The translations under genes were made by a program, and so were the position numbers. Under the pieces are notes generated by a model. The model saw nothing but the letters and a program-made list of their open reading frames with translations, was not told where the DNA came from and searched no databases. From contig CALZKF010000019.1 in the NCBI GenBank assembly GCA_945787955.1, positions 1 to 36,813 of the forward strand: a DNA stretch of 36,813 nt. Direction: 5' to 3'. Below, in pieces: positions 5,849 through 25,713 of this stretch (the first letter of the stretch is position 1; each line of letters begins with the position of its first letter). The stretch comes from an uncultured Acidobacteriota bacterium (GTDB lineage: Bacteria; Acidobacteriota; Polarisedimenticolia; Polarisedimenticolales; Polarisedimenticolaceae).

Positions 5849-7156
5849 TCATTTCCTCCCGACACCGGTGTATCGGAATCCCAGCTTCCGCATCTTTACC
5901 GGCTCAAAGACGTTTCGAAGGTCCACAACCAACGGCTCGCGAAGTCGTTCCGAGATACGGGCCAGGTCCAGGCCCCTGAACTGGTTCCATTCGGTGGCGA
6001 TTACGAGCAGGTCTGCAGAGTCGCACGCATCGTATTCGTCGGTGCAGTAAACCACGTCCTTTCGCCTGGTTCGTGCCGCCCCTTCCATTCCGATCGGATC
6101 GTAGACCCGCATCCGGGCCCCAAGCCCGCTTAACCGGTTCAGGATTTCGATGGCCGGCGACTCGCGCAGATCGTCCGTGTTCGGCTTGAACGTCAACCCC
6201 AGGAGGGCGATGACCTTCCCCGATACATCGCCCCCGGTCGCCGCGAGGATCTTTTCCACCATCTTTCCCGGCCGCTCCTCGTTGACGCGGATAACCGCGG
6301 AGACGATCTGCAGGTCGGTGCCGCAGTCCCTGGCCAGTTCCAGAATCGCCCGGGTATCCTTGGGAAAACAGGAGCCGCCGTAGCCCGGGCCGGGGTGGAG
6401 AAATTTCGGGCCGATGCGCTTGTCCAGCCCCATGCCTTTGGCCACGGCGTGGATGTCGGCGTCGACCTGCTCGCACAGATCGGCCATCTCGTTGATGAAT
6501 GATATCTTGGTTGCCAAAAAGGCGTTGGACGCGTACTTGATTACTTCGGCGGTCACAACGTCGGTAACCACAATCGGCGTTTCGATGAGGTAGAGCGGGC
6601 GGTAGAGATCCTGAAGAATCGCCGTGGCCTGCTCGTCTTCCGTCCCGAGCACGACCCGGTTGGGGCGCATGAAGTCCTCGATGGCGGAGCCCTCCCGCAG
6701 GAATTCCGGATTGGACGCAACGCTGAACGGATGCTCTTCCGCTTTGTGCTCCTCGATAATCTCTCGAACCATGCTGCCCGTGCCGGCCGGTACGGTGCTC
6801 TTGGTCACCACCACCTTGAACGAGTTCAGATTCTCGGCCACGGACCGTGCGACCTCACGGACGAAGGACAGATCCGCACGGCCGTCTTCTCCCTGGGGTG
6901 TGCCTACGGCGATGAAAACCACCAGGGCTTCACGGATCGATCGGTCCAGTTCGGTGGTGAAGGAGAGGCGTCCGGCTGCGACGTTCCTGTGCACCACCTG
7001 CTCAAGGCCTGGTTCGTAAATCGGCAATTTCCCTTGCAACAGCAGTTCGATCTTGGACTCGTCCTTGTCCACACAAGTGACGTGGTTGCCGAACTCGGCG
7101 AAGCACGCCCCGGTCACCAGTCCGACGTACCCGGTTCCCACTACGGTGATATTCAT
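5849..7156 (-). CDS. ugd: UDP-glucose 6-dehydrogenase
   Basis: This cytoplasmic enzyme oxidises UDP-glucose to UDP-glucuronate with two NAD+. The 435-residue protein begins MNITVVGTGYVGLVTG, a Rossmann motif characteristic of bacterial UGDH (TuaD/RkpK type). It contains TKSTVPAGTG, the SNPEFLREG segment, and the catalytic cysteine in GPGYGGSCFPKDT (Cys263). LGLTFKPNTDDLRESPA marks the C-terminal UDP-binding domain. Length is normal for the family. The reading frame is open far upstream, but the ATG at 7156 sits on the four-base ATGA overlap with the epimerase stop and gives the family's usual N-terminus, so it is the real start. Its product feeds the adjacent UDP-glucuronate 4-epimerase. Confidence 0.95.
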   Translation of the reverse strand: MNITVVGTGYVGLVTGACFAEFGNHVTCVDKDESKIELLLQGKLPIYEPGLEQVVHRNVAAGRLSFTTELDRSIREALVVFIAVGTPQGEDGRADLSFVREVARSVAENLNSFKVVVTKSTVPAGTGSMVREIIEEHKAEEHPFSVASNPEFLREGSAIEDFMRPNRVVLGTEDEQATAILQDLYRPLYLIETPIVVTDVVTAEVIKYASNAFLATKISFINEMADLCEQVDADIHAVAKGMGLDKRIGPKFLHPGPGYGGSCFPKDTRAILELARDCGTDLQIVSAVIRVNEERPGKMVEKILAATGGDVSGKVIALLGLTFKPNTDDLRESPAIEILNRLSGLGARMRVYDPIGMEGAARTRRKDVVYCTDEYDACDSADLLVIATEWNQFRGLDLARISERLREPLVVDLRNVFEPVKMRKLGFRYTGVGRK

Positions 7157-8136
7157 GATCGGCTCTTTGGCCCCCTGTTGTGCGAGCGGAACCATGCGAC
7201 GAATCTGTCGAGCCCTTCCTCGATGCCGATCCGTGGCTCCCAAGACAGTTCTTCCCTGGACCGGGTGGTATCGGCCCAGGTCCGGTCCACATCGCCCGGT
7301 TGCATCGGCTTGATGTCGATGTCGGCATCGCGGTTCAGTCGCGTTGATATCATTTCGATCAGCCCGGCCAGGGTGACGGTCCGGGAACCTCCCAGGTTCC
7401 AGATGTGATACCCGGAAAGATGGTCCATTGCCGCGATGATGCCCTCGACGATATCGTCGATATAGGTGTAATCCCGGGCCGAACTGCCGTCCCCGAACTG
7501 GGAGATCGACAACCCGCCGGCAATGGAACGCGTGAAGTGGTGGATCGCCATCTCCGGGCGCTGGCGCGGACCGTACACCGTGAAAAACCGCAGGCAAGCG
7601 ACCTTGAGCCCGAAGAGGTGATGATGGGCGTGACACAGCACCTCGCCGGCTTTTTTGGTTGCCGCATAGGGCGAGATCGGGTGGTCCACAGGGTCGTCCT
7701 CCGCAAACGGCACCTTGGCGTTGTTGCCGTACACCGATGATGACGACCCGAACAGGAAGCGGTCGATGCGGTGGAGTCTGCAGGCCTCGAGCAGGCAGGT
7801 CGTCCCGACCAGATTGACCGATGTGTACAGTTGCGGATCGGCGATGGAAGGCCTTACCCCGGCGCGTGCGGCGAGATGGACCACCGTGCCGAACGATGTG
7901 CCCGAAAACAGCCGGTCCAAAGTCTCCCGGTCACGGATGTCACCTTCCACCATTCGGTAATTCGGGTCGGCGAGAGCAACCGCCAGATTCCCGCGTTTGA
8001 CCTCGGGATCGTAGAAGGAATCAAAATTGTCCAGCCCGACGACCGTATGGCCGGCGGCGAGAAGCCGTTCCGCCAGGGAGGAGCCGATAAATCCGGCTGC
8101 GCCGGTTACCAGAATTGTGTCTGCGCCGGTTTTCAA
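7153..8136 (-). CDS. UDP-glucuronate 4-epimerase-like NAD-dependent epimerase
   Basis: The 327-residue extended SDR has TGAAGFIG (residues 11-18), the serine run FGSSSSVYG, and the catalytic pair in SPYAATKKAG (Tyr157, Lys161). The stretch FFTVYGPRQRPEMA is the hallmark of UDP-glucuronate epimerases (LpsL/Cap1J type), which convert UDP-GlcA to UDP-GalA. The downstream overlapping ugd gene makes exactly the UDP-GlcA this enzyme would need. The start is a TTG at 8136 that overlaps the stop of the preceding dehydrogenase as TTGA, with AAGAAGG about ten bases upstream. The family is clear. The substrate is inferred from the diagnostic motif plus neighbours, and UDP-glucose or other UDP-sugars are less likely. 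Confidence 0.88.
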   Translation of the reverse strand: MKTGADTILVTGAAGFIGSSLAERLLAAGHTVVGLDNFDSFYDPEVKRGNLAVALADPNYRMVEGDIRDRETLDRLFSGTSFGTVVHLAARAGVRPSIADPQLYTSVNLVGTTCLLEACRLHRIDRFLFGSSSSVYGNNAKVPFAEDDPVDHPISPYAATKKAGEVLCHAHHHLFGLKVACLRFFTVYGPRQRPEMAIHHFTRSIAGGLSISQFGDGSSARDYTYIDDIVEGIIAAMDHLSGYHIWNLGGSRTVTLAGLIEMISTRLNRDADIDIKPMQPGDVDRTWADTTRSREELSWEPRIGIEEGLDRFVAWFRSHNRGPKSRS

Positions 8137-9449
8137 ATCGAGTGCACCTTCTTCCGCCCCGCCTTGACCGACCGGGTCGCGTTGCGGGTGTCCAGAACCA
8201 CCCTGGAATGCCGCACGACTTCATCATAGTCGAAGCAGGAGTGGTCGGTAATGATGATCACCAGGTCGGCCTCCTTGAAGGTGGCGGGGGTGAACGGCTT
8301 GCCGCGCTTCACCGTGCCGTCTTCCATGCGCAGGCTTTTGTTATAGGGATCGTGAAACTGAATCCTTGCTCCCCGCTCATGCAGTATTTGAAGCACATCC
8401 AGGGCGGGAGATTCCCGCAGATCCCCGGTATCTTTTTTATAGGCCGCACCCAGGATCAGGATCCTGGAGCCCTTGACGCTTTTGCGGCAGTCGTTCAACA
8501 GTTCGGTGGCGCGCCGCACAACCAGTTCGGGCATGGCGCCGTTGATCTCGGACGCCAGTTCGATGAAACGGGCCGAGTAGTTCAGGGTCTTGAGTTTCCA
8601 GGACAGGTAATGGGGGTCCAGCGGAATGCAATGCCCGCCGATGCCCGGTCCGGGGTAGAACCTCATGAACCCGAACGGCTTGGTCGCTGCGCCGTCGATC
8701 ACTTCCCAAACGTCCAGCTTCAGCTTCTCGCACATCATGGCTATTTCGTTCACCAACCCGATGTTGACGGCCCGGAACGTATTCTCCAGGAGCTTGATCA
8801 TTTCGGCGGTCTGGGTTGAACTCACGGTGTGGACCGATGAGATCGCCGTCTCGTAGAACATCCGGGCCGCCCGGGTACATCGCGGCGTCGTGCCACCCAC
8901 GACTTTCGGTGTGTTCTTCGTTTCGTAGAGCTTGTTACCGGGATCGACCCGTTCCGGCGAGAACGCCAGGAAGAAATCCTGCCCCGCTTTCAGTCCCTTG
9001 GCTTCCAGGCGTGGACGCATGATCTCCTCGGTGGTTCCCGGGTAGGTGGTGGATTCCAGGACGATCAACTGCCCGGGACGCAATTCCCGGGCGATCTGGT
9101 CCACCGCCGAGACGATATAGGAGATATCCGGGTCCCGGGTCTTCCGGAGCGGTGTCGGGACGGCAATGAAAATCGCATCCATCTTCCCGCAACCCTTGTA
9201 GTCGGCCCGGGCGGTAAACTTCCCGGACTGCACCAGTTGCTTGACCGTGGACGACGGCACATCTTCCACGTGGGAACGGCCCTTGTTCAAACCGTCGACC
9301 TTCCTGAGGTCCACATCCACACCAACGACCTTGAACCCGGCATGGGCGAACTCTACCGCCAGGGGCAAACCGACATAGCCGAGCCCGATGATTCCAACCT
9401 GGGCCTTGCCGGTGGCGATCTTTTTTTTAAGTATTTCAAGGTGGGCCAT
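8133..9449 (-). CDS. wbpA: Nucleotide-sugar dehydrogenase, UDP-GlcNAc 6-dehydrogenase type (WbpA-like)
   Basis: The 438-residue enzyme belongs to the UDP-glucose/GDP-mannose dehydrogenase superfamily. It has the Rossmann motif VGIIGLGYVGLPL (residues 18-30), VLESTTYPGTT, and FSPERVDPGN. Its catalytic cysteine is in GPGIGGHCIPLDPHY (Cys274). GGHCIPxDP, LLENTFRAVNI and PFGFMRFYPGP resemble WbpA, which makes UDP-GlcNAcA, rather than Ugd, whose motif is GGSCFPKD. UDP-ManNAc or UDP-GalNAc as substrate is possible. The ATG at 9449 is preceded by AAGGAAG at good distance. It is the first gene of the polysaccharide operon, about 70 bp downstream of a recognisable promoter. Codons 7-10 contain a run of eight adenines. 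Confidence 0.88.
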   Translation of the reverse strand: MAHLEILKKKIATGKAQVGIIGLGYVGLPLAVEFAHAGFKVVGVDVDLRKVDGLNKGRSHVEDVPSSTVKQLVQSGKFTARADYKGCGKMDAIFIAVPTPLRKTRDPDISYIVSAVDQIARELRPGQLIVLESTTYPGTTEEIMRPRLEAKGLKAGQDFFLAFSPERVDPGNKLYETKNTPKVVGGTTPRCTRAARMFYETAISSVHTVSSTQTAEMIKLLENTFRAVNIGLVNEIAMMCEKLKLDVWEVIDGAATKPFGFMRFYPGPGIGGHCIPLDPHYLSWKLKTLNYSARFIELASEINGAMPELVVRRATELLNDCRKSVKGSRILILGAAYKKDTGDLRESPALDVLQILHERGARIQFHDPYNKSLRMEDGTVKRGKPFTPATFKEADLVIIITDHSCFDYDEVVRHSRVVLDTRNATRSVKAGRKKVHSI

Positions 9450-9516
9450 ATTTCTTCCTTCTACACGCCGGTCGGAGGTCATGGACCGCTTGCTTCTGAT
9501 TCCCTCGGGATGAAGC

Positions 9517-9546
9517 AATATAGTGCGGCTACCCCGGCTTTTCCAA
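9517..9546 (-). promoter_or_regulatory. Putative sigma70-type promoter of the polysaccharide operon
   Basis: On the minus strand TTGGAA (9546-9541) is followed after 18 bases by TATATT (9522-9517). The pair sits just after the mlaD stop codon and about 70 bases before the wbpA-like start. It matches the -35 consensus at four of six and the -10 at five of six positions. It would allow the polysaccharide genes to be expressed separately from the mla operon. No terminator hairpin is visible between the two operons, so read-through is also possible. Confidence 0.5.
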
Positions 9547-9550
9547 CGGC

Positions 9551-10681
9551 CTACTCTTGCGACAGCTTTTCCATCTGTTCGGTGGTCAGCTTGATGCCCT
9601 TTTTCTGATAATGGCGCAACAGCCATCGGGCGAACTTGCTGTCGTTGGTGCCGGCGGCGATATCTTCCAGACCGTCGTGGAGCGTGCGTTCATTGATCAT
9701 GGCGCCCAGCGTGCCCTGGCCCTCATCGATCTTGCGGGTGATCTCCGCCAGGTTGCGCAGCGTCGCTCCCAGATCGTCGGCCACGGCGTTGGAGTAATCG
9801 GGGTCATTGATCAGCCGGCCGACCAGGCCGTCCGGTTCCTCAAGACGGCCCGCGATGGCTGCCAGCGAGGCTGAGGCCGCCTGCAGGGATTCAATCGCCT
9901 GTTCCGCGGCGCCGTTTTCCTGCAGCAGAGGTCCCAGAGCGCCTTCACCCCGCTCCAGCTTCTCAACGAACCCGGCCAGAGCCCCCAGAGTCCTGGAAAG
10001 ATCGTCTACATTGCCTGCGAACTCCTGGTCCGACAGCAACCGGCCGAGGAATCCGCGACCAGCTCTCAATTCGCCTGTGATCGCCTCCAGGTTCAGCAGG
10101 GTGCCGTGGAGCCTGGCCAGGCCTTCCTTGCCGAATTCCGGGTTCTGGATCATCTCGCCCAGCATGCCCTCCCCTTTCTCCAGGGGTTCGAGGATCCTGC
10201 TCAGCGCTACCGTGATGTCGCCCAGGTTTTCTGCGATGTACGCGCTCTGCTCGAAGAATTCCGTCTCCTGCAGAACGGGGATCTCGTCCCCCGGTTCCAA
10301 GATCGGAAGCTCGGGATCCCCCGCTGTCAGGTCCACGAACTTCTCCCCCGACAACAACTGCAGGTATCGCAGGGCGGCGACGGTTTCCTGCCGCACCCGG
10401 CCGGTGTACTCCTTACGGATACCGATGGCGACATCGACACCCCGGGACTCAGGGTCCGTGGGGACCCGGATTCTCGTGACGGAGCCGACCTGCACCCCGT
10501 CCAGCTTGACCGGGGACCCGACAATCAGCCCTTCGGCGTTGGGAAACCTGACCAGGTATCCCACCGTCTTGACCAGCAGGGACGATTGTTCGCCTACGGT
10601 CATCACCGCCACGGCCAGTATCAGGAGCGCCAGGGCTCCGATGGTACCGACCATCAGGTCACCGCCAGGTCGCTTAGCCAT
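9551..10681 (-). CDS. mlaD: MCE (MlaD-type) substrate-binding protein with C-terminal 38-residue repeats
   Basis: The 376-residue protein has one N-terminal membrane helix (about residues 9-29) and a single MCE domain (about 38-120, including FPNAEGLIVGSPVKLDGVQVG). A long helical tail makes up more than half of the protein. MCE proteins form hexameric channels in the periplasm that pass phospholipids between membranes, working with the MlaF ATPase and the MlaE permease, both encoded immediately upstream. The tail holds five copies of a G-x-[LMV]-G-x-[LM]-[LI] turn at residues 168, 206, 243, 281 and 319, a very regular spacing. The start overlaps the mlaF stop by eight bases. The family assignment is firm. 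The tail probably forms an alpha-helical needle or tunnel, which is inference. Confidence 0.92.
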   Translation of the reverse strand: MAKRPGGDLMVGTIGALALLILAVAVMTVGEQSSLLVKTVGYLVRFPNAEGLIVGSPVKLDGVQVGSVTRIRVPTDPESRGVDVAIGIRKEYTGRVRQETVAALRYLQLLSGEKFVDLTAGDPELPILEPGDEIPVLQETEFFEQSAYIAENLGDITVALSRILEPLEKGEGMLGEMIQNPEFGKEGLARLHGTLLNLEAITGELRAGRGFLGRLLSDQEFAGNVDDLSRTLGALAGFVEKLERGEGALGPLLQENGAAEQAIESLQAASASLAAIAGRLEEPDGLVGRLINDPDYSNAVADDLGATLRNLAEITRKIDEGQGTLGAMINERTLHDGLEDIAAGTNDSKFARWLLRHYQKKGIKLTTEQMEKLSQE

Positions 10682-15357: not shown

Positions 15358-18300
15358 TCAGAACAGCTTCAGAACCGTGAGCATGAACTCCTGCTGGTCT
15401 CCCAGTTCAGGGATGTCCGCCGAGATCGCCCGGCCGTAATTGAAAATGAAGTAGGTCTTCCACGGCCCCGGCGTATTCACGGAAAATCCGGCGCCGGTGA
15501 AGCTGCGGGTTGCTTCGTCCAGGAGGCTGTTCACCACCGCCGCGGTCTGAACGGTGGCGTCCAGTTGCAGGATATCGAAAACGTTGAACGAGTATCCGAC
15601 CCGCAGGATTTTGCCCTGGTCGAACCTGACCCCGGATCCGGAAAACCCGCTCAGGCGGGTCTGGCCGAAGAACGATATCTCGTACTGGCTGAAGCGGTCC
15701 AGGTCGTCACCATCCAGGTAGGTCACTTCCGCCCGGACCTTCTGGAACTTCGGCAGGAACCATTCTTTGTTGAGAGAGGCTTCCCAGCGAGCGTATCGCT
15801 CCGGGTCACCGGCGGCGACCGGATTCACGAATTCCCCCGCTCCCGGGTCGAACAGCCCCCAGTCTCCCCATTCCGATCGCCGGAAACGGCTGTGCTCCGC
15901 CGAGAAGGTGTAGCCCCTGCGGTTGTAGAACAGCTCCACGGCACCTGATGAAACGGTGTGGTCCGGCGGGAGCACGAACTCCAGAGGAGTCGGCAGGCCG
16001 GCGCGGTGCGCCTCCGCCTCGTCCTCCTGGTCATATTCGACGAATCCCAGCCGTCCGATCAGATTCAACTTGGCGAACTTGCCCAGTGGGAAACCGGCCT
16101 GCAGGCTGACGCCCTGTCGCCTGCTGCGGATCCGCTCCGCCAGGAGTTCCCGGTCCCCGTCGAACACCTTGTCATCGAATTTCAGGGCAATGCCCTGAAC
16201 ATTAAGGGTCAGGTCGATCTTGCGGCCGAACAGATCCGGCTCGGTGGCGGTGGCGTTGAGGAATACCCCGGCGAAAAACACGTTGGCCTGGATACCTTTT
16301 CCGAACAGATCGTAGTTGAAGTAATCCGCGCCGCCCAGGGGGACGATGTTGTCCAGGCCGTTATCCTTGAACAGGCCGGCGGCGGCGAACAACTGGCTGG
16401 TGTCCATCTCGCTCTTGACTGTCCGTGTGCCATCGTCCCGCCGCTCCAGGTAGCGGAAGCCCTGATCGGTGTCCCGCAGCATCTGGTTGTCGGACCGGTA
16501 GGCCGCCTCCCGGGCCTCCTGAAACGTTTCGGGATCCGGATTGATGCGATAGGTTTCGAAGGTCACTTCGCGCTGGACCATGAAGTTCCGGCCGCCTGCG
16601 GTCCAGACCTGCTGGCCGTTGATGGCGGAGATCATCCAAAGCTCCCTGCCGTCCGGTCCGGCTACCGCTGCATAGGTGTCCCGTTCTTCGTTGGCCAGCA
16701 CCGGGGCTTCCAGGTTGTTCTGTACCAGCGAAACCTTCAACCGAACGAAATTTTCGCGATCTATCCAGACTCGGCCCCGGTACAACGGCCGCGCCGGGTC
16801 CGGGTTCTCCGGCTCGAAGGCCAGGATCCATGCCTCCCGCCCCGCGACCTGGCCCCGACCTGCCAGACGGTAGCGGTAGGTCCGGTCCAAAGTGAGGTCC
16901 ATCGGCAGGGTGATGACCTTTTCCGGCTGAATCAGAGGAATTTCGGGAAACTTTTTCCAGGGAACCCGGGTGCCGTTTATCGAGTATTCGGTCTGCTCCC
17001 ACTCCAGATCTTCCCCTCGGGCCCAGAAATAGTTGCTCTTGATCGACACGTCGATGTTGGAGCCGCCCTGGGCGAACTTGAAGTGGTAATCGACCCGGGC
17101 GGCGGCGATCCAGCGTTCGATGTAATCGTCCTGGACCTGCTGCACCGCCTGGTGCTGCGCAATGATCTCCTGGGCGGACAGTTCCCGCTCACGATCCACC
17201 CTCAGTTTTTCCGTGTCCAGTTCGAAACCGGGGGTGACCACGCCTGCCTGGTATTCCAACAGCAGCGGATAGTCTGCTGGGCTGACTTTGACGTCCCGGC
17301 CGGGACTGCCGTCCGGGACCTCCACCGTCGTTGTTCTCAGGCGGCTGCCGGAAACGGGGTCGACTATGTACGGGTTGCGGACGAAGTTCGACGGCAGTCG
17401 CAGCCATGCCTTCCGACCCTCGCCGTCGCCGGCGGCCAGCTCGTAGACAACCAGCGCCTGGAACGTCCGGTCGCTGAAAAATTTTCCGACCACTCCACCT
17501 GCCGGCTCACCATCCCCCTCGATGTTCCTGAGAGAGCTTGCCTCCATCGGCGCAGGTGCATATCCGGCCATGAGGCTGGTGGCGGTGCCGGCCATCCACA
17601 GGATTCCGGTATCCCTCCCGGGGCCGTCACCCGGTAATTCGGTGATTGCGGCAGCGGCGCCGTTGTGGAGGGCGGCCAGCGCAACAGCCAGCCGGCGCGA
17701 CAGCGCCTCGTCCCCCGAGGCGGATTCGAACCGCGCCCATAGAGCCGGCGCCGGCGGAAAGCCCAGGGACTCGGGGATCAGTTTCCGGATAATCTCTCCC
17801 GCTTCAGCCGCATCTTCCAGGCCGAATCTCAGCGGCAGAATATCAACGTAGGGCGAGGTTTCGTTTCCCCACAATTCCCGCTGCCAGTCGATCCTTCGGG
17901 AGTCCACGGCCCCCTGGGATATAGCCGGAACCGGAAGCCCGGCTCTCTGCGCTTCAGCCCTGATCGCCAGCGCGGACTGTTTCAGGACATAGGCGTAAAC
18001 GTCTGCGGAAACTCCTTTTCGGGTTGAATCGCCGGAAGGAAGGTCCATTACCTCGTACACCGCCACACGGTCCCCCAGGTGCCGGACAGAGCTGCGGGTG
18101 TATCTCAGCCAAGCCTCCACCGCTCCGGGCACCAACGGAGTGGGACCGCCGCCGCCGGGAACATATGCCGGATGGGAGCCGTCCAGGCACAGGGAAACCA
18201 CGGCACCTGTCCGCCTCAGATCGTCGACGCGCTCGCTGAGTGCGGACCAGTCGAACCGGCCCGGTTCGACCTCGACCTGAGCCCAGTCCGCCGTCAGGCG

Positions 18301-18477
18301 GACAATCAGGGGGGCGGCGCGGTTACCTGAAAGCAGCTCTTCTGGAAGCGGCGGCCCGGCAATTTCGCCGATCCAACCCAGCGAAGGAAACGCCGTCGAT
18401 TCCGTCTCGGCCGCTGCGACCGGGGCCAGAACGATGATCGTAACAAAAACGAGAACATATACCGGTCGCATTGCCAT
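15358..18477 (-). CDS. Outer-membrane fusion: glycosidase-like TIM barrel + LolA/LolB-like domain + C-terminal beta-barrel
   Basis: The 1039-residue protein has a signal peptide (cleavage after about residue 23, APVAAA). Next comes a region to about 330 that reads like a clan A glycoside hydrolase barrel (WAQVEVEPGRFDWSAL, then an AVYEVMDLPSG strand), then a beta-sandwich-like stretch (about 330-425). A segment at about 430-690 resembles outer-membrane lipoprotein-sorting folds (LAGRGQVAGREAWIL, GRVWIDRENFVRLKV). The last about 340 residues are alternating, aromatic-rich strands ending in LKLF, the terminal phenylalanine expected of a barrel inserted by BamA. I chose ATG 18477 because it gives a proper signal peptide and lies downstream of a TTGACA promoter. 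GTG 18552 would add 25 polar residues. Domain names are my reading of motifs, and the function is unknown. Confidence 0.7.
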   Translation of the reverse strand: MAMRPVYVLVFVTIIVLAPVAAAETESTAFPSLGWIGEIAGPPLPEELLSGNRAAPLIVRLTADWAQVEVEPGRFDWSALSERVDDLRRTGAVVSLCLDGSHPAYVPGGGGPTPLVPGAVEAWLRYTRSSVRHLGDRVAVYEVMDLPSGDSTRKGVSADVYAYVLKQSALAIRAEAQRAGLPVPAISQGAVDSRRIDWQRELWGNETSPYVDILPLRFGLEDAAEAGEIIRKLIPESLGFPPAPALWARFESASGDEALSRRLAVALAALHNGAAAAITELPGDGPGRDTGILWMAGTATSLMAGYAPAPMEASSLRNIEGDGEPAGGVVGKFFSDRTFQALVVYELAAGDGEGRKAWLRLPSNFVRNPYIVDPVSGSRLRTTTVEVPDGSPGRDVKVSPADYPLLLEYQAGVVTPGFELDTEKLRVDRERELSAQEIIAQHQAVQQVQDDYIERWIAAARVDYHFKFAQGGSNIDVSIKSNYFWARGEDLEWEQTEYSINGTRVPWKKFPEIPLIQPEKVITLPMDLTLDRTYRYRLAGRGQVAGREAWILAFEPENPDPARPLYRGRVWIDRENFVRLKVSLVQNNLEAPVLANEERDTYAAVAGPDGRELWMISAINGQQVWTAGGRNFMVQREVTFETYRINPDPETFQEAREAAYRSDNQMLRDTDQGFRYLERRDDGTRTVKSEMDTSQLFAAAGLFKDNGLDNIVPLGGADYFNYDLFGKGIQANVFFAGVFLNATATEPDLFGRKIDLTLNVQGIALKFDDKVFDGDRELLAERIRSRRQGVSLQAGFPLGKFAKLNLIGRLGFVEYDQEDEAEAHRAGLPTPLEFVLPPDHTVSSGAVELFYNRRGYTFSAEHSRFRRSEWGDWGLFDPGAGEFVNPVAAGDPERYARWEASLNKEWFLPKFQKVRAEVTYLDGDDLDRFSQYEISFFGQTRLSGFSGSGVRFDQGKILRVGYSFNVFDILQLDATVQTAAVVNSLLDEATRSFTGAGFSVNTPGPWKTYFIFNYGRAISADIPELGDQQEFMLTVLKLF

Positions 18478-18540
18478 CCACACCGCCTTGCACCCCAACG
18501 GACGAGGGTGATTTTCCGCCGGTTTCCGGCGGGATCCCTC

Positions 18541-18569
18541 ATTTTTCGCCACACCCCCCGAACTGTCAA
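18541..18569 (-). promoter_or_regulatory. Putative promoter of the outer-membrane fusion gene
   Basis: On the minus strand a perfect TTGACA (18569-18564) is followed after 17 bases by AAAAAT (18546-18541), a four-of-six match to the -10 box. The predicted transcript starts near 18534, after the GTG at 18552 and before the ATG at 18477, which supports the shorter protein. The rest of the 228 bp divergent spacer up to 18705 is AT-rich near 18640-18690 and holds a GCCTAGGC palindrome at 18662-18669. I cannot place a convincing plus-strand promoter there. Confidence 0.4.
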
Positions 18570-18705
18570 CACGATGGAGGCGTGTATCGGCCGCTTCTGG
18601 TCCGATTTCCGGTGCCGGCCTCGGTTGCCCTCAAACAACCAATAATTCCTTAAAGTACCTTGCCTAGGCTACTTATATGACTAGATTTCAACCTTGAGGC
18701 TACAT

Positions 18706-20028
18706 ATGGCTATACACGGTGATCTATATTCGATGCCGCTTCCCGAGCTGCTGCAGTGGCTGGGGGGGAACCGTCGGACCGGAACGCTTGAGATCGAGCG
18801 GGACAAGGTCTGCAAGAAAATCGTCTTCGAGGATGGCCGGATCATCTCCTGCTCCTCCAATGACCCCAGTGAACTGCTGGGCCACTACCTGGTCGCCCGG
18901 GGCCAGGTCACCGAAGACCTGCTTCGCATTGCGCTGGACCAGCAGTCCGCAACCGGCAAACAGCTGGGCATGACCCTTGTCGAGATGGGCGTTCTCACCA
19001 GTGAAGAGTTGACGAGGAACCTCCACGCCAAGATCGAGGAAACCATTTTCAGCCTGTTCGAATGGGAGCAGGGTGTGTTCCGGTATGACGACCGAGCCAT
19101 CACCGGCAAGAACCAATTTCCGACCGATATCCGGGTGGAAGATGTTCTGCTCCGGGGAATGCAGCGCATAGACGAAATCCGACGTATCCGCGAGGTCATC
19201 GTCTCCGACCGCTTGATCCCGAAGCGAACCGCCAAGCTACCCCCCCCGGAAGTATTCCGGAACAAGATCGCCCGTCGGATTTACGAAGCGCTGGACGGGG
19301 AACGCACCATAGCCGACATCCTCCTCCACGCCCATGGTTCGGTCTTTGTCGTCTCCAAGCTGCTGTTCGAGCTGCACCGCACCAACCTGATTGAGCTTGC
19401 GGGGGACCTGCAGCCCTCGCCGGACAACGACGCGGCAGCACCTGCGCCCGAACCGGTCGATGCTCAGTTGTTTCCGGAATTCAGCCGTGAACATGAAACG
19501 GGCTCGGAGCGGGCGGCGGTGCCGGCAGAAGGGCCGGACGCCTTCGTCATCCCGGAGCCGGTCCGCGACGAACCTGTGCCGCCCGATTCGCCCGATCCCG
19601 GGACTGTCCCTCCCGGCAGCGGCCCGAGCCTCTCGCCTGAGGAGGTGGATACCGCCCTGCAATTGGCACGGGAGTTCATGTCCAAGGGAGAGTACGACGC
19701 CGCTCTGGAAATCCTGGACAAGATCTACCGCAATAATCCCAACAACGAATCGCTGCGCCGCCTGAACAAGGAGGCGGAGGTCGCCTTTTTGGAGAAAGCC
19801 CGCAAGCATTACATGCCTGACGAAAAAATTCCGGTCCTGACCCGGCCGTTGGATGAACTGGAAACAGAAGACCTTTCGCCCGAGGAGTTTTTCCTTTTGA
19901 GCCGGATCGATGGAACCTGGGATGTGCGCTCCATTATCCAGATCGCACCGATCCGGATCGTGGTCGCTTTGAGAACCCTCAAGAAAATGAGGGAAAAAGG
20001 GGTAATCGAACTTCGCGACCCGGCCTAG
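18706..20028 (+). CDS. DUF4388 (PATAN-type) protein with central TPR-like segment
   Basis: The 440-residue protein begins with a DUF4388 domain (about residues 3-130: GDLYSMPLPELLQWLG, GTLEIERD, IVFEDGRIISCSSNDP, LLGHYLVARGQVTEDLL). This domain is found in gliding, signalling and response-regulator proteins of myxobacteria and relatives. A proline- and acid-rich linker spans about 225-310, and a TPR-like helix pair follows at about 312-350 (ALQLAREFMSKGEYDAALEI). The C-terminal 60 residues look like a small helical or winged-helix element. The ATG at 18706 has GAGG seven bases upstream, whereas the in-frame TTG at 18694 lacks a site. It has no signal peptide, so it is cytoplasmic. A role as a signalling or localisation adaptor is inference. 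Confidence 0.8.
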   Translation: MAIHGDLYSMPLPELLQWLGGNRRTGTLEIERDKVCKKIVFEDGRIISCSSNDPSELLGHYLVARGQVTEDLLRIALDQQSATGKQLGMTLVEMGVLTSEELTRNLHAKIEETIFSLFEWEQGVFRYDDRAITGKNQFPTDIRVEDVLLRGMQRIDEIRRIREVIVSDRLIPKRTAKLPPPEVFRNKIARRIYEALDGERTIADILLHAHGSVFVVSKLLFELHRTNLIELAGDLQPSPDNDAAAPAPEPVDAQLFPEFSREHETGSERAAVPAEGPDAFVIPEPVRDEPVPPDSPDPGTVPPGSGPSLSPEEVDTALQLAREFMSKGEYDAALEILDKIYRNNPNNESLRRLNKEAEVAFLEKARKHYMPDEKIPVLTRPLDELETEDLSPEEFFLLSRIDGTWDVRSIIQIAPIRIVVALRTLKKMREKGVIELRDPA

Positions 20029-22051: not shown

Positions 22052-24834
<2,783 letters not shown>

Positions 24835-24838
<4 letters not shown>

Positions 24839-25713
24839 GATCCAACCAGACCCCGGAGGAGGGCGAGGTTGCGCCGGTCCTCCGCCAGGTCGTCTCCCTT
24901 GGGAGTCTCCAGCACCATCGGAACATCCCGGAACCGGCCGTCGTTCATGAACGGCCGAAAGCTCTCGAGGCCGATGAACCCGTCTCCGATATGGTCGTGA
25001 CGATCTTTTCGGCTGCCCAGATCCGTTTTGGAATCGTTGAGATGGACCCCACCGATCCGTTGCAGGCCGATGAGTTCATCGAATCGACGCATCATCTTGC
25101 GGAACGAGCGGGCATCCCGGAACTCGTACCCGGCGGCAAGAAGATGGCAGGTATCGATGCAGACTCCCAGGCGATCACTGCAGGCGGCCAGGTCCAGGAT
25201 GGCCGCCAGATGTTCGAAGCTCGACCCCAGATTGGTTCCCTGGCCCGCGGTGGTTTCCAGCAGGATCATGCCGTCATCGCCACGGGCACGCTTCCCTGCG
25301 CCCATGACCGCATCCAGTGAGGACGCCACTGCTGCCAGGCCGGCCTCTTCACCCGCGCCCACGTGGGAGCCGGGGTGCAACACCAGGTACGGCACCCCAA
25401 GTTCGGCGCAACGATCCAGTTCCGCACCAAGTGCAGCCCGTGACCTCTCCAGCAGATCCGGCTTGGGGGAGGCCAGGTTTATCAGGTAAGAGGTATGGGC
25501 CATGGTGTAGCGGTCCAGCCCGGCCTCCCGGCTGGCGGCGCGGAAGCGGTCGACCTCGCCGGTGGCGAACGGCCTGGCCGCCCATTGGTTGGAGGACTTC
25601 ACGAAAATCTGGAGCGCCGTCGCCTCGACACGGCAGGCCCGCTCCACCGCCAGGTCCATGCCGCCTGCGATGGACATGTGGGCACCCAGACGCAGACTTT
25701 TCACCGCTGCCAC
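24835..25713 (-). CDS. nfo: Endonuclease IV (AP endonuclease)
   Basis: Nfo cleaves DNA 5' of abasic sites in base-excision repair using three zinc ions. The 292-residue protein has LGAHMSIAGGMD, VLHPGSHVGAG, LLETTAGQGTNLGSSFEHL, CIDTCHLLAAGYEF and GGVHLNDSKTDLGSRKDRH followed by HIGDGFIG. All the metal-ligand motifs of the family are present. The GTG at 25713 has GGAG upstream. An in-frame GTG at 25704, three codons further on, has AGGG eight bases ahead and is equally possible. It is the first gene of the nfo-queA-tgt-lpxH-like operon. Confidence 0.95.

Follow-up and report, generated by a model that had tools for sequence, protein, structure and literature searches.

A glycosidase-like domain without its catalytic glutamates in a predicted lipid-carrier and Omp85-type barrel protein of Acidobacteriota

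In the window, that is, the whole stretch of 36,813 nucleotides analysed here from a contig of an uncultured Acidobacteriota bacterium (CALZKF010000019.1, assembly GCA_945787955.1), one long open reading frame very probably encodes a three-part protein, which joins a dead glycosidase, a lipid-carrier fold and a POTRA-less Omp85-type barrel in one chain. The continuity of this chain is read from the sequence, and each of its three folds is a predicted model. Taken as a whole, the observations are best explained, with moderate confidence, by an N-terminal pseudoglycosidase derived from a PslG-like retaining enzyme of family GH39; they suggest that a former enzyme has been turned into a structural part of an outer-membrane-building machine. 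The protein offers a clear example of an enzyme fold that has been retained in a non-catalytic role, and active-looking and dead relatives in one phylum are available for comparison. The initial annotation of the glycosidase-like domain was silent on the LolA-like and Omp85-like parts of the chain.

Domain layout and affinity of the glycosidase fold

The reading frame is listed from a GTG; its true start is probably the ATG of M26 (position 18477), because the match in a sister genome from residue 2 contains four in-frame stops and the reading frame of that genome begins near residue 25. The closest named relative is Candidatus Polarisedimenticola svalbardensis (L031), with 76% identity in the best segment. 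The features are as follows:

15358..18552, minus strand: whole open reading frame, 1064 aa as listed from GTG
18409..18477, minus strand: probable signal peptide, residues 26-48, with an AAA end followed by E49 (sequence read by eye)
17563..18393, minus strand: (β/α)8 domain, residues 54-330, putative GH39/PslG-like pseudoglycosidase (profile and predicted model)
18040..18042, minus strand: Leu171, at the acid/base Glu position (profile alignment, 67-member census)
17728..17730, minus strand: Phe275, at the nucleophile Glu position (profile alignment, 67-member census)
17725..17727, minus strand: Glu276, an acid adjoining the nucleophile position, not family-conserved (column count)
17233..17562, minus strand: β-sandwich, residues 331-440, aligning with the C-terminal part of GH39 enzymes (model)
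16408..17220, minus strand: predicted LolA/LolB/RseB-type lipid-carrier fold, residues 445-715 (Pfam, model, fold matches)
15361..16407, minus strand: predicted Omp85-type barrel, residues 716-1064, 16 long strands, C-terminal Phe (model, fold matches)
15643..15657, minus strand: RLSGF, residues 966-970, in the long loop of barrel strands 11/12 (model and alignment)

The full-length model, built from 43 homologues, has a mean pLDDT of 87.2 and a pTM of 0.82. Its N-terminal domain contains strands at residues 57-61, 83-89, 118-124, 165-168, 210-213, 238-244, 270-276 and 301-304 with helices between them, followed by a β-sandwich that reaches residue ~436; both the (β/α)8 barrel and the β-sandwich of GH39 enzymes are thus present in the prediction.

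When the single window protein was compared with Pfam and PDB, no glycosidase match was obtained; an NCBIfam scan of five proteins gave no match above the cut-off, and among the curated glycoside hydrolase models GH42 was reached by the window domain with 11.2 bits, under the cut-off of 21. The same GH42 model was matched at E ≤ 1 by 11 of 44 family members (best 6.3e-5). A profile of these 44 N-terminal domains (alignment A1) identified PslG in PDB at E 5.3e-10, followed by GH35/GH42 enzymes at E 9e-4 and weaker; the glycosidase relation is therefore visible only with the 44-member profile, because single-sequence searches are blind to this domain. By fold, PslG occupied ranks 1-3 in a Foldseek search with the model and was matched with Z 25.5-25.8 over 341-343 residues (rmsd 4.5-4.6; model residues 54-435 against PslG 41-442), next to the GH39 structure 5jvk (Z 26.9, rmsd 4.4) and GH30 xylanases (Z up to 25.2), so that GH39 and GH30 are inseparable by fold alone, the xylanases tying with PslG in Z. 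The clan A glycosidase fold without a catalytic pair that had been claimed for this domain is thus upheld and, by the profile match together with Z values of 25-27, narrowed to GH39 and PslG.

Lipid-carrier domain, barrel and genomic setting

Residues ~445-715 are predicted to adopt a lipid-carrier fold of the LolA/LolB/RseB type, with RseB, LolA and LolB being indistinguishable here. The Pfam family MucB_RseB (PF03888) is matched with 27.2 bits against a cut-off of 22.3 (residues 544-612, part 95-150 of the 178 model positions), and PF17131 reaches 16.5, below its cut-off of 30. Residues 445-725 modelled alone gave a pLDDT of 85.6 and a pTM of 0.83; a fold search with this model returned 15 chains at E ≤ 0.001, namely LolA, LolB, RseB and MucB structures together with 3bk5 and 4z48 (DUF1329 protein), all with low TM-scores of 0.20-0.44. 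In terms of Z, 3bk5 and 4z48 (11.0), LolA3 9tp6 (10.9), LolB 9tpm (9.5) and LolB 8cm1 (9.3) are interspersed with large lipid-transfer proteins such as ApoB (9.8) and lipovitellin (8.9). Joined N-terminally to a membrane barrel, the lipid domain would be tethered to the outer membrane. A LolA model was found in all 41 genomes searched (the source genome and 40 relatives), this model being broad enough to be found in 6 of 14 controls, including two archaea; the LolB model was found in none of the 41, an absence that means little, because it detects only E. coli among the 14 control genomes.

In the model, residues 716-1064 form 16 long strands, as counted by eye, and the barrel is matched by BamA 9ccg (Z 22.9), CdiB 6wim (22.3) and TamA 4c00 (20.9). 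The loop between barrel strands 11/12, which is taken to be the place of the Omp85 L6 motif (presumably VRGF in Omp85 proteins), carries a glycine (G969) conserved in 45 of 45 aligned barrels and followed by Phe or Tyr in 41; the pattern [VIL]RG[FY] occurs in 21 of the 45, and the window reads RLSGF, without the Arg of VRGF. The C-terminal residue is Phe or Trp in 44 of the 45 barrels. The window protein has no match to PF01103, the barrel profile has none among PDB sequences, and in single-barrel searches one of the 45 matched ShlB (E 0.12); the Omp85 assignment is therefore drawn from the fold, the strand number and the loop position. No POTRA family was found at E ≤ 10 in the Pfam scan of the window protein, and residues 445-715 are LolA-like instead. 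PF01103 is matched at three other places in the source genome (frames of 912, 750 and 632 aa), so the window protein is not the only Omp85-type protein of this genome and probably not its BamA. In several relatives (G001:C82, G003:C15, G004:C1:728720, G006:C81, G009:C51 and others), PF01103 lies in frames of ~2,060-2,440 aa, which are possibly another unusual architecture.

The full-length protein was matched in 50 of 100 genomes, the source genome included. Across 396 genomes of the phylum, the N-domain profile was matched in 145 and the lipid-domain profile in 257, the weaker matches being partly standalone enzymes in the former case and probably other LolA-like proteins in the latter. A scan of genome contigs gave one relative, and a plasmid search found none. 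More divergent family members (L043-L047) also occur, a second copy standing beside a closer homologue in G016, G020, G028 and G036. The f32 lineage, with frames mostly of ~830-870 aa, keeps the lipid and barrel parts; in its members L049 (995-3505, minus strand) and L050 (1325-3799, plus strand) ~230-240 residues precede the lipid part, and these two are not recognised by the N-domain profile. Fragments of L049 and L050 such as LLLAAAQALKAQAP and FPGRPWTLWLPSDPG resemble what would be left of the dead domain's helix 4 and strand 7. The short N-terminus of f32 may represent further erosion of the same domain, which is not required everywhere, because this lineage has a much shorter N-terminus.

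On the lower-coordinate side, genes for a GT2 glycosyltransferase, MlaE, an ABC ATPase, MlaD and two nucleotide-sugar dehydrogenases lie on the same strand, and a GT4 glycosyltransferase and an acyltransferase lie nearby on the opposite strand. The two dehydrogenase genes of the UDP-glucose/GDP-mannose family are neighbours (5852-7636 and 8136-9626), the first having ~160 residues before its first domain. A divergently transcribed neighbour (18694-20028) combines DUF4388 with a weak TPR match, and at 22795-25713 TGT and QueA-type queuosine genes are adjacent, beside a gene for an AP_endonuc_2-type TIM barrel. In 19 neighbourhoods (the window and 18 others), for which genes were called mechanically and of which several end at contig ends, the DUF4388 gene occurred in 6, the most of any neighbour, and homologues of both MlaE and MlaD in 3. 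An operon reading was rejected, since no neighbour is widely shared and the Mla genes are near in 3 of the 19; the gene of the dead-glycosidase/barrel protein looks like a stand-alone envelope gene.

Catalytic loss, conserved faces and alternative readings

The loss of the catalytic pair was assessed against standalone GH39-like relatives from the same phylum, which comprise 18 frames of 328-487 aa; all six that were scanned matched Glyco_hydro_39 at E ≤ 0.001, four of them above the cut-off. In the 17 aligned standalone proteins (alignment A3, which omits L085 as a near copy of L084), R105, E189, P190, H258 and E301 are invariant in the numbering of L082. A profile-profile alignment of the 44 family N-domains with these 17 proteins (probability 99.4, E 5.9e-21) pairs YEVMDLP with WSLWNEP and ALWARFE with PFWLTEV, and thus L171 with E189, F275 with E301, R85 with R105 and R242 with H258: the invariant Arg of strand 2 is retained in the window, and the invariant His of strand 6 is replaced by Arg. 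Both segments quoted in the initial annotation are present and fall inside its range of 17710-18065, VYEVMDLPSG at residues 165-174 (18031-18060), running off strand 4 (165-168), and LWARFESASG at residues 271-280 (17713-17742), overlapping strand 7 (270-276). The replacement of the acid/base Glu by Leu that it proposed holds, L171 being aligned with the Glu of WNEP, and so does the loss at the strand that should resemble WxTEfG, where F275 is aligned with the nucleophile Glu of WLTE. The register of strand 7 is given by the profile alignment, as the structure comparison returned ranges and not residue pairs. The number shared by E276 of the window and E276 of PslG is a coincidence. According to passages of a study on PslG, hydrolysis by this enzyme requires E165 and E276, and little Psl is made when both are changed (PMC6813494).

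Conservation among homologues, the check proposed with the original claim, points the same way. The family census covers 67 N-domains, i.e., the 44 of A1 and 23 new frames, two of which are short (L124, 376 aa, cut by a contig end; L136, 588 aa), and represents part of the listed family matches; the family fragments L100 and L101 are in neither set. L002 was dropped from the first alignment because it comes from the genome of L031, and L020, L030, L051 and the two pieces of L013 because they are short or broken; A1 also omits L049 and L050, A2 (43 sequences) also omits L026, A4 has 46 sequences and A5 has 45, with L048 left out. The acid/base Glu is present in 3 of the 67 members, the nucleophile Glu in 1 and both in 0, so the loss is not confined to one mutated copy. 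Among the three with the acid/base Glu, only L024 (180-3281, minus strand; IMDEPSG) has it in a WNEP-like setting, and the sole member with the nucleophile Glu is L010 (1246-4461, plus strand; LMEEW). In the active-looking standalone proteins the corresponding counts are 18 of 18 (L085 included) and 17 of 17; the nucleophile control relies on the 17-protein alignment and the profile-profile alignment, because in the HMM alignment the strand-7 column is a gap in 17 of the 18. To judge from these residues, the N-terminal domain is very probably a dead enzyme and should not work by the retaining mechanism, since both catalytic carboxylates are lost.

Replacement acids were sought in columns with an acid in half or more of the 67 N-domains or in at least 8 of the 9 members of the window's order. 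This threshold was passed by E94, D101, E167, E200, D222, E231 and D237 and by the column of Pro266, where other members have an acid; D101, E231, D237 and the Pro266 column pass it by the 67-member count. None of these eight columns is at the end of strand 6, 7 or 8, and across the 67 N-domains the ends of strands 4, 6, 7 and 8 show no family-wide replacement acid. E94 and D101 belong to the loop that follows strand 2 and are on the side of the cleft; E94, which 8 of the 9 order members retain and whose column is acidic in 36% of the 67, matches E114, an almost invariant residue of the active set. The initial annotation had held that other glutamates at the ends of these two strands, 4 and 7, would speak against its claim, and acids of this kind are found in part: strand 7 ends with E276, and E167 and D170 are located within strand 4 or shortly after it, but none of them is family-conserved. 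It is on these residues that continued enzymatic activity, with E276 at strand 7 and D170 or E167 at strand 4 as displaced catalysts, would depend. Each of E276 and D170 is one residue from a lost position, E276 right after that of the nucleophile and D170 right before that of the acid/base. D170 is Asp or Glu in 25 of 67 members and 7 of 9 in the order, E167, which lies inside strand 4, is kept in 26 of 67 and 8 of 9, and E276 is acidic in 13 of 67 and 6 of 9. Both D170 and E276 are acidic in 5 of the 9, so that a displaced pair is conceivable for the window's own branch, and in 5 of the 9, the window included, E276 is accompanied by acids at both D170 and E167. However, position 276 holds Glu in 8 of 67 members and in 5 of 9 within the order, being non-Glu in the other 4; E167 matches a position that varies in active enzymes (WEIWNEP, WSLWNEP); and adjacent residues on a β-strand point opposite ways. 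An enzyme acting through displaced residues is accordingly regarded as very improbable.

The description of the domain as conserved but dead is in keeping with purifying selection, as dN/dS against the sister species (simple counting) is 0.216 for residues 54-330, compared with 0.140 (331-440), 0.111 (445-715) and 0.115 (716-1064). Together with mean column identities of 26% in A1, 48% in A4 and 39% in A5, these values indicate that the N-domain is maintained, though it evolves faster than the remaining parts of the chain. Conservation in the active set is higher on the cleft face (strand ends and following loops), at 0.567, than at the opposite end, at 0.459 (permutation p 5e-5); the dead family shows the reverse, with 0.309 for the cleft and 0.417 for the opposite end (0/20,000 permutations). 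The nine members of the window's order show 0.479 for the cleft vs 0.490 for the opposite face (p 0.65), and the window with seven class members that have WNEP-like remnants shows a trend in face contrast (p 0.086). The seven most conserved residues of the N-domain (Y235, K191, D237, P429, Y188, F358 and P267) sit at the foot of the barrel fold, in helix 4 and in the sandwich; W90, ranked 9th in conservation, and W272, ranked 16th, are found on the side of the cleft or close to it. The old cleft as a conserved glycan site was rejected family-wide by these permutations. Of the two roles suggested earlier, glycan binding or scaffolding, scaffolding or docking is favoured family-wide, because, of the faces compared, the old cleft shows the lowest conservation, opposite to what is seen in the active relatives; glycan binding keeps some room, because the cleft contrast vanishes within the order (n = 9). 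For the dead domain, docking is thus preferred to glycan binding, though with no great certainty.

The corresponding alternative, in which the dead domain is a lectin-like receptor whose old cleft holds the saccharide part of an exopolysaccharide or glycolipid during its export by the lipid domain and barrel, would fit the equal conservation of the two faces within the order, where R85 is kept in 8 of 9 members, W90 in 9 and W272 in 7, as well as the two glycosyltransferases, two nucleotide-sugar dehydrogenases, epimerase, acyltransferase, MlaE, MlaD and ABC ATPase near the gene. The family-wide deficit of conservation in the cleft argues against it, R85 is kept in only 24 of the 67, and the neighbourhood is not widely kept; such a receptor is consequently deemed unlikely. 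A secretion device, whose barrel moves the N-domain as a passenger to the surface as proposed for the patatin-type PlpD, would show the same order of parts, passenger then barrel, and translocases are among the Omp85 proteins covered by the 2014 survey (PMC4104836). It is nevertheless improbable, since the LolA-like carrier that replaces POTRA has no role in a passenger scheme and the seven top-ranking residues are placed as would be expected for a partner interface. Although the source genome is a 3.8-Mb draft of 346 contigs that is 87% complete, a decaying gene or an assembly artefact is hardly credible in view of one open frame, 67 homologous N-domains and dN/dS values of 0.11-0.22.

Proposed function and comparison with known systems

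The preferred reading, which is considered reasonably probable, is that the GH39 domain has lost catalysis and now serves, on the periplasmic side, as a module of an outer-membrane machine built as one chain, in which a signal peptide, the dead GH39 domain, a LolA/LolB/RseB-like lipid pocket and a POTRA-less Omp85-type barrel would be combined. The barrel would be placed in the outer membrane, its N-terminal side directed towards the periplasm; as the N-terminal parts of the Omp85 proteins BamA and TamA are periplasmic, the same location is expected for the dead glycosidase and the lipid pocket. The dead glycosidase may dock a partner or position the lipid domain via a non-catalytic face, and a tethered LolB-like receptor would be coupled to an Omp85-type gate, a receptor that is proposed because LolA is matched in every one of the 41 genomes and LolB, weak as that absence is, in none. 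An insertase would be more likely than general outer-membrane protein assembly, given the three other PF01103 places in the genome and the same LolA and LolB counts; a lipid-client insertase at the outer membrane is put forward tentatively, and we infer the topology, client, direction and docking role of the machine. In its most specific and rather doubtful form, the LolB-like receptor on the Omp85 barrel would take an acylated client (a lipoprotein or glycolipid), feed it to the lateral gate of the barrel and replace LolB, possibly flipping the client to the surface, with the former exopolysaccharide glycosidase serving as a dead periplasmic docking module.

PslG of Pseudomonas aeruginosa (PDB 4zn2, 5bx9, 9g17), which the family profile matches best among PDB sequences, resembles the window protein across the whole domain, with a (β/α)8 barrel and a C-terminal β-sandwich, and the Arg of strand 2 is retained. 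Unlike PslG, the window protein has L171 and F275 in place of the catalytic Glu pair, and its chain continues into the predicted lipid carrier and membrane barrel. With the LolA/LolB/RseB-MucB superfamily it shares the predicted lipid-carrier fold and the Pfam MucB_RseB match above the cut-off; however, LolA, LolB and RseB are soluble or lipid-anchored, whereas the domain of the window protein precedes a membrane barrel in the chain. The 16 long strands and the fold matches with Z values of 20.9-22.9 are features in common with the Omp85 superfamily (BamA, TamA, CdiB/FhaC, PlpD); the strands 11/12 loop has a conserved Gly-aromatic motif, which takes the full form [VIL]RG[FY] in 21 of the 45 barrels but not in the window. 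In contrast to the POTRA-bearing subfamilies (BamA, TamA, FhaC, PlpD), the window protein has no POTRA match and carries LolA-like and dead GH39 domains.

A typical Omp85 protein, as described in part of a PlpD study, consists of a 16-strand barrel and at least one POTRA domain (PMC11116518). The 2014 survey of Omp85 proteins distinguishes ten subfamilies (POTRA types, WD40, patatin, metallo, lipo and no N-terminus); the dead-GH39/LolA-like/barrel architecture is absent from these ten as given in its section 10, and its main text contains no word starting with "glyco" or "Lol" (PMC4104836). A literature search, thin in subscription journals and without bioRxiv preprints, returned no report of this architecture and no paper containing both PslG and Omp85. 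The nearest parallel found is the BBJ23-29 cluster of Borrelia, in which, according to the parts of the report drawn on here, the POTRA-less Omp85 protein BBJ25 is clustered with a LolA-like protein, the two being separate proteins accompanied by an ABC transporter (PMC13078400). The window protein differs in being one chain with no conserved transporter neighbour, and those parts of the report mention no glycosidase domain for Borrelia (PMC13078400). A single chain with both a LolA/LolB-type pocket and a barrel of the Omp85 type would connect the Lol world with the Omp85 world, in a step that would be testable on one protein.
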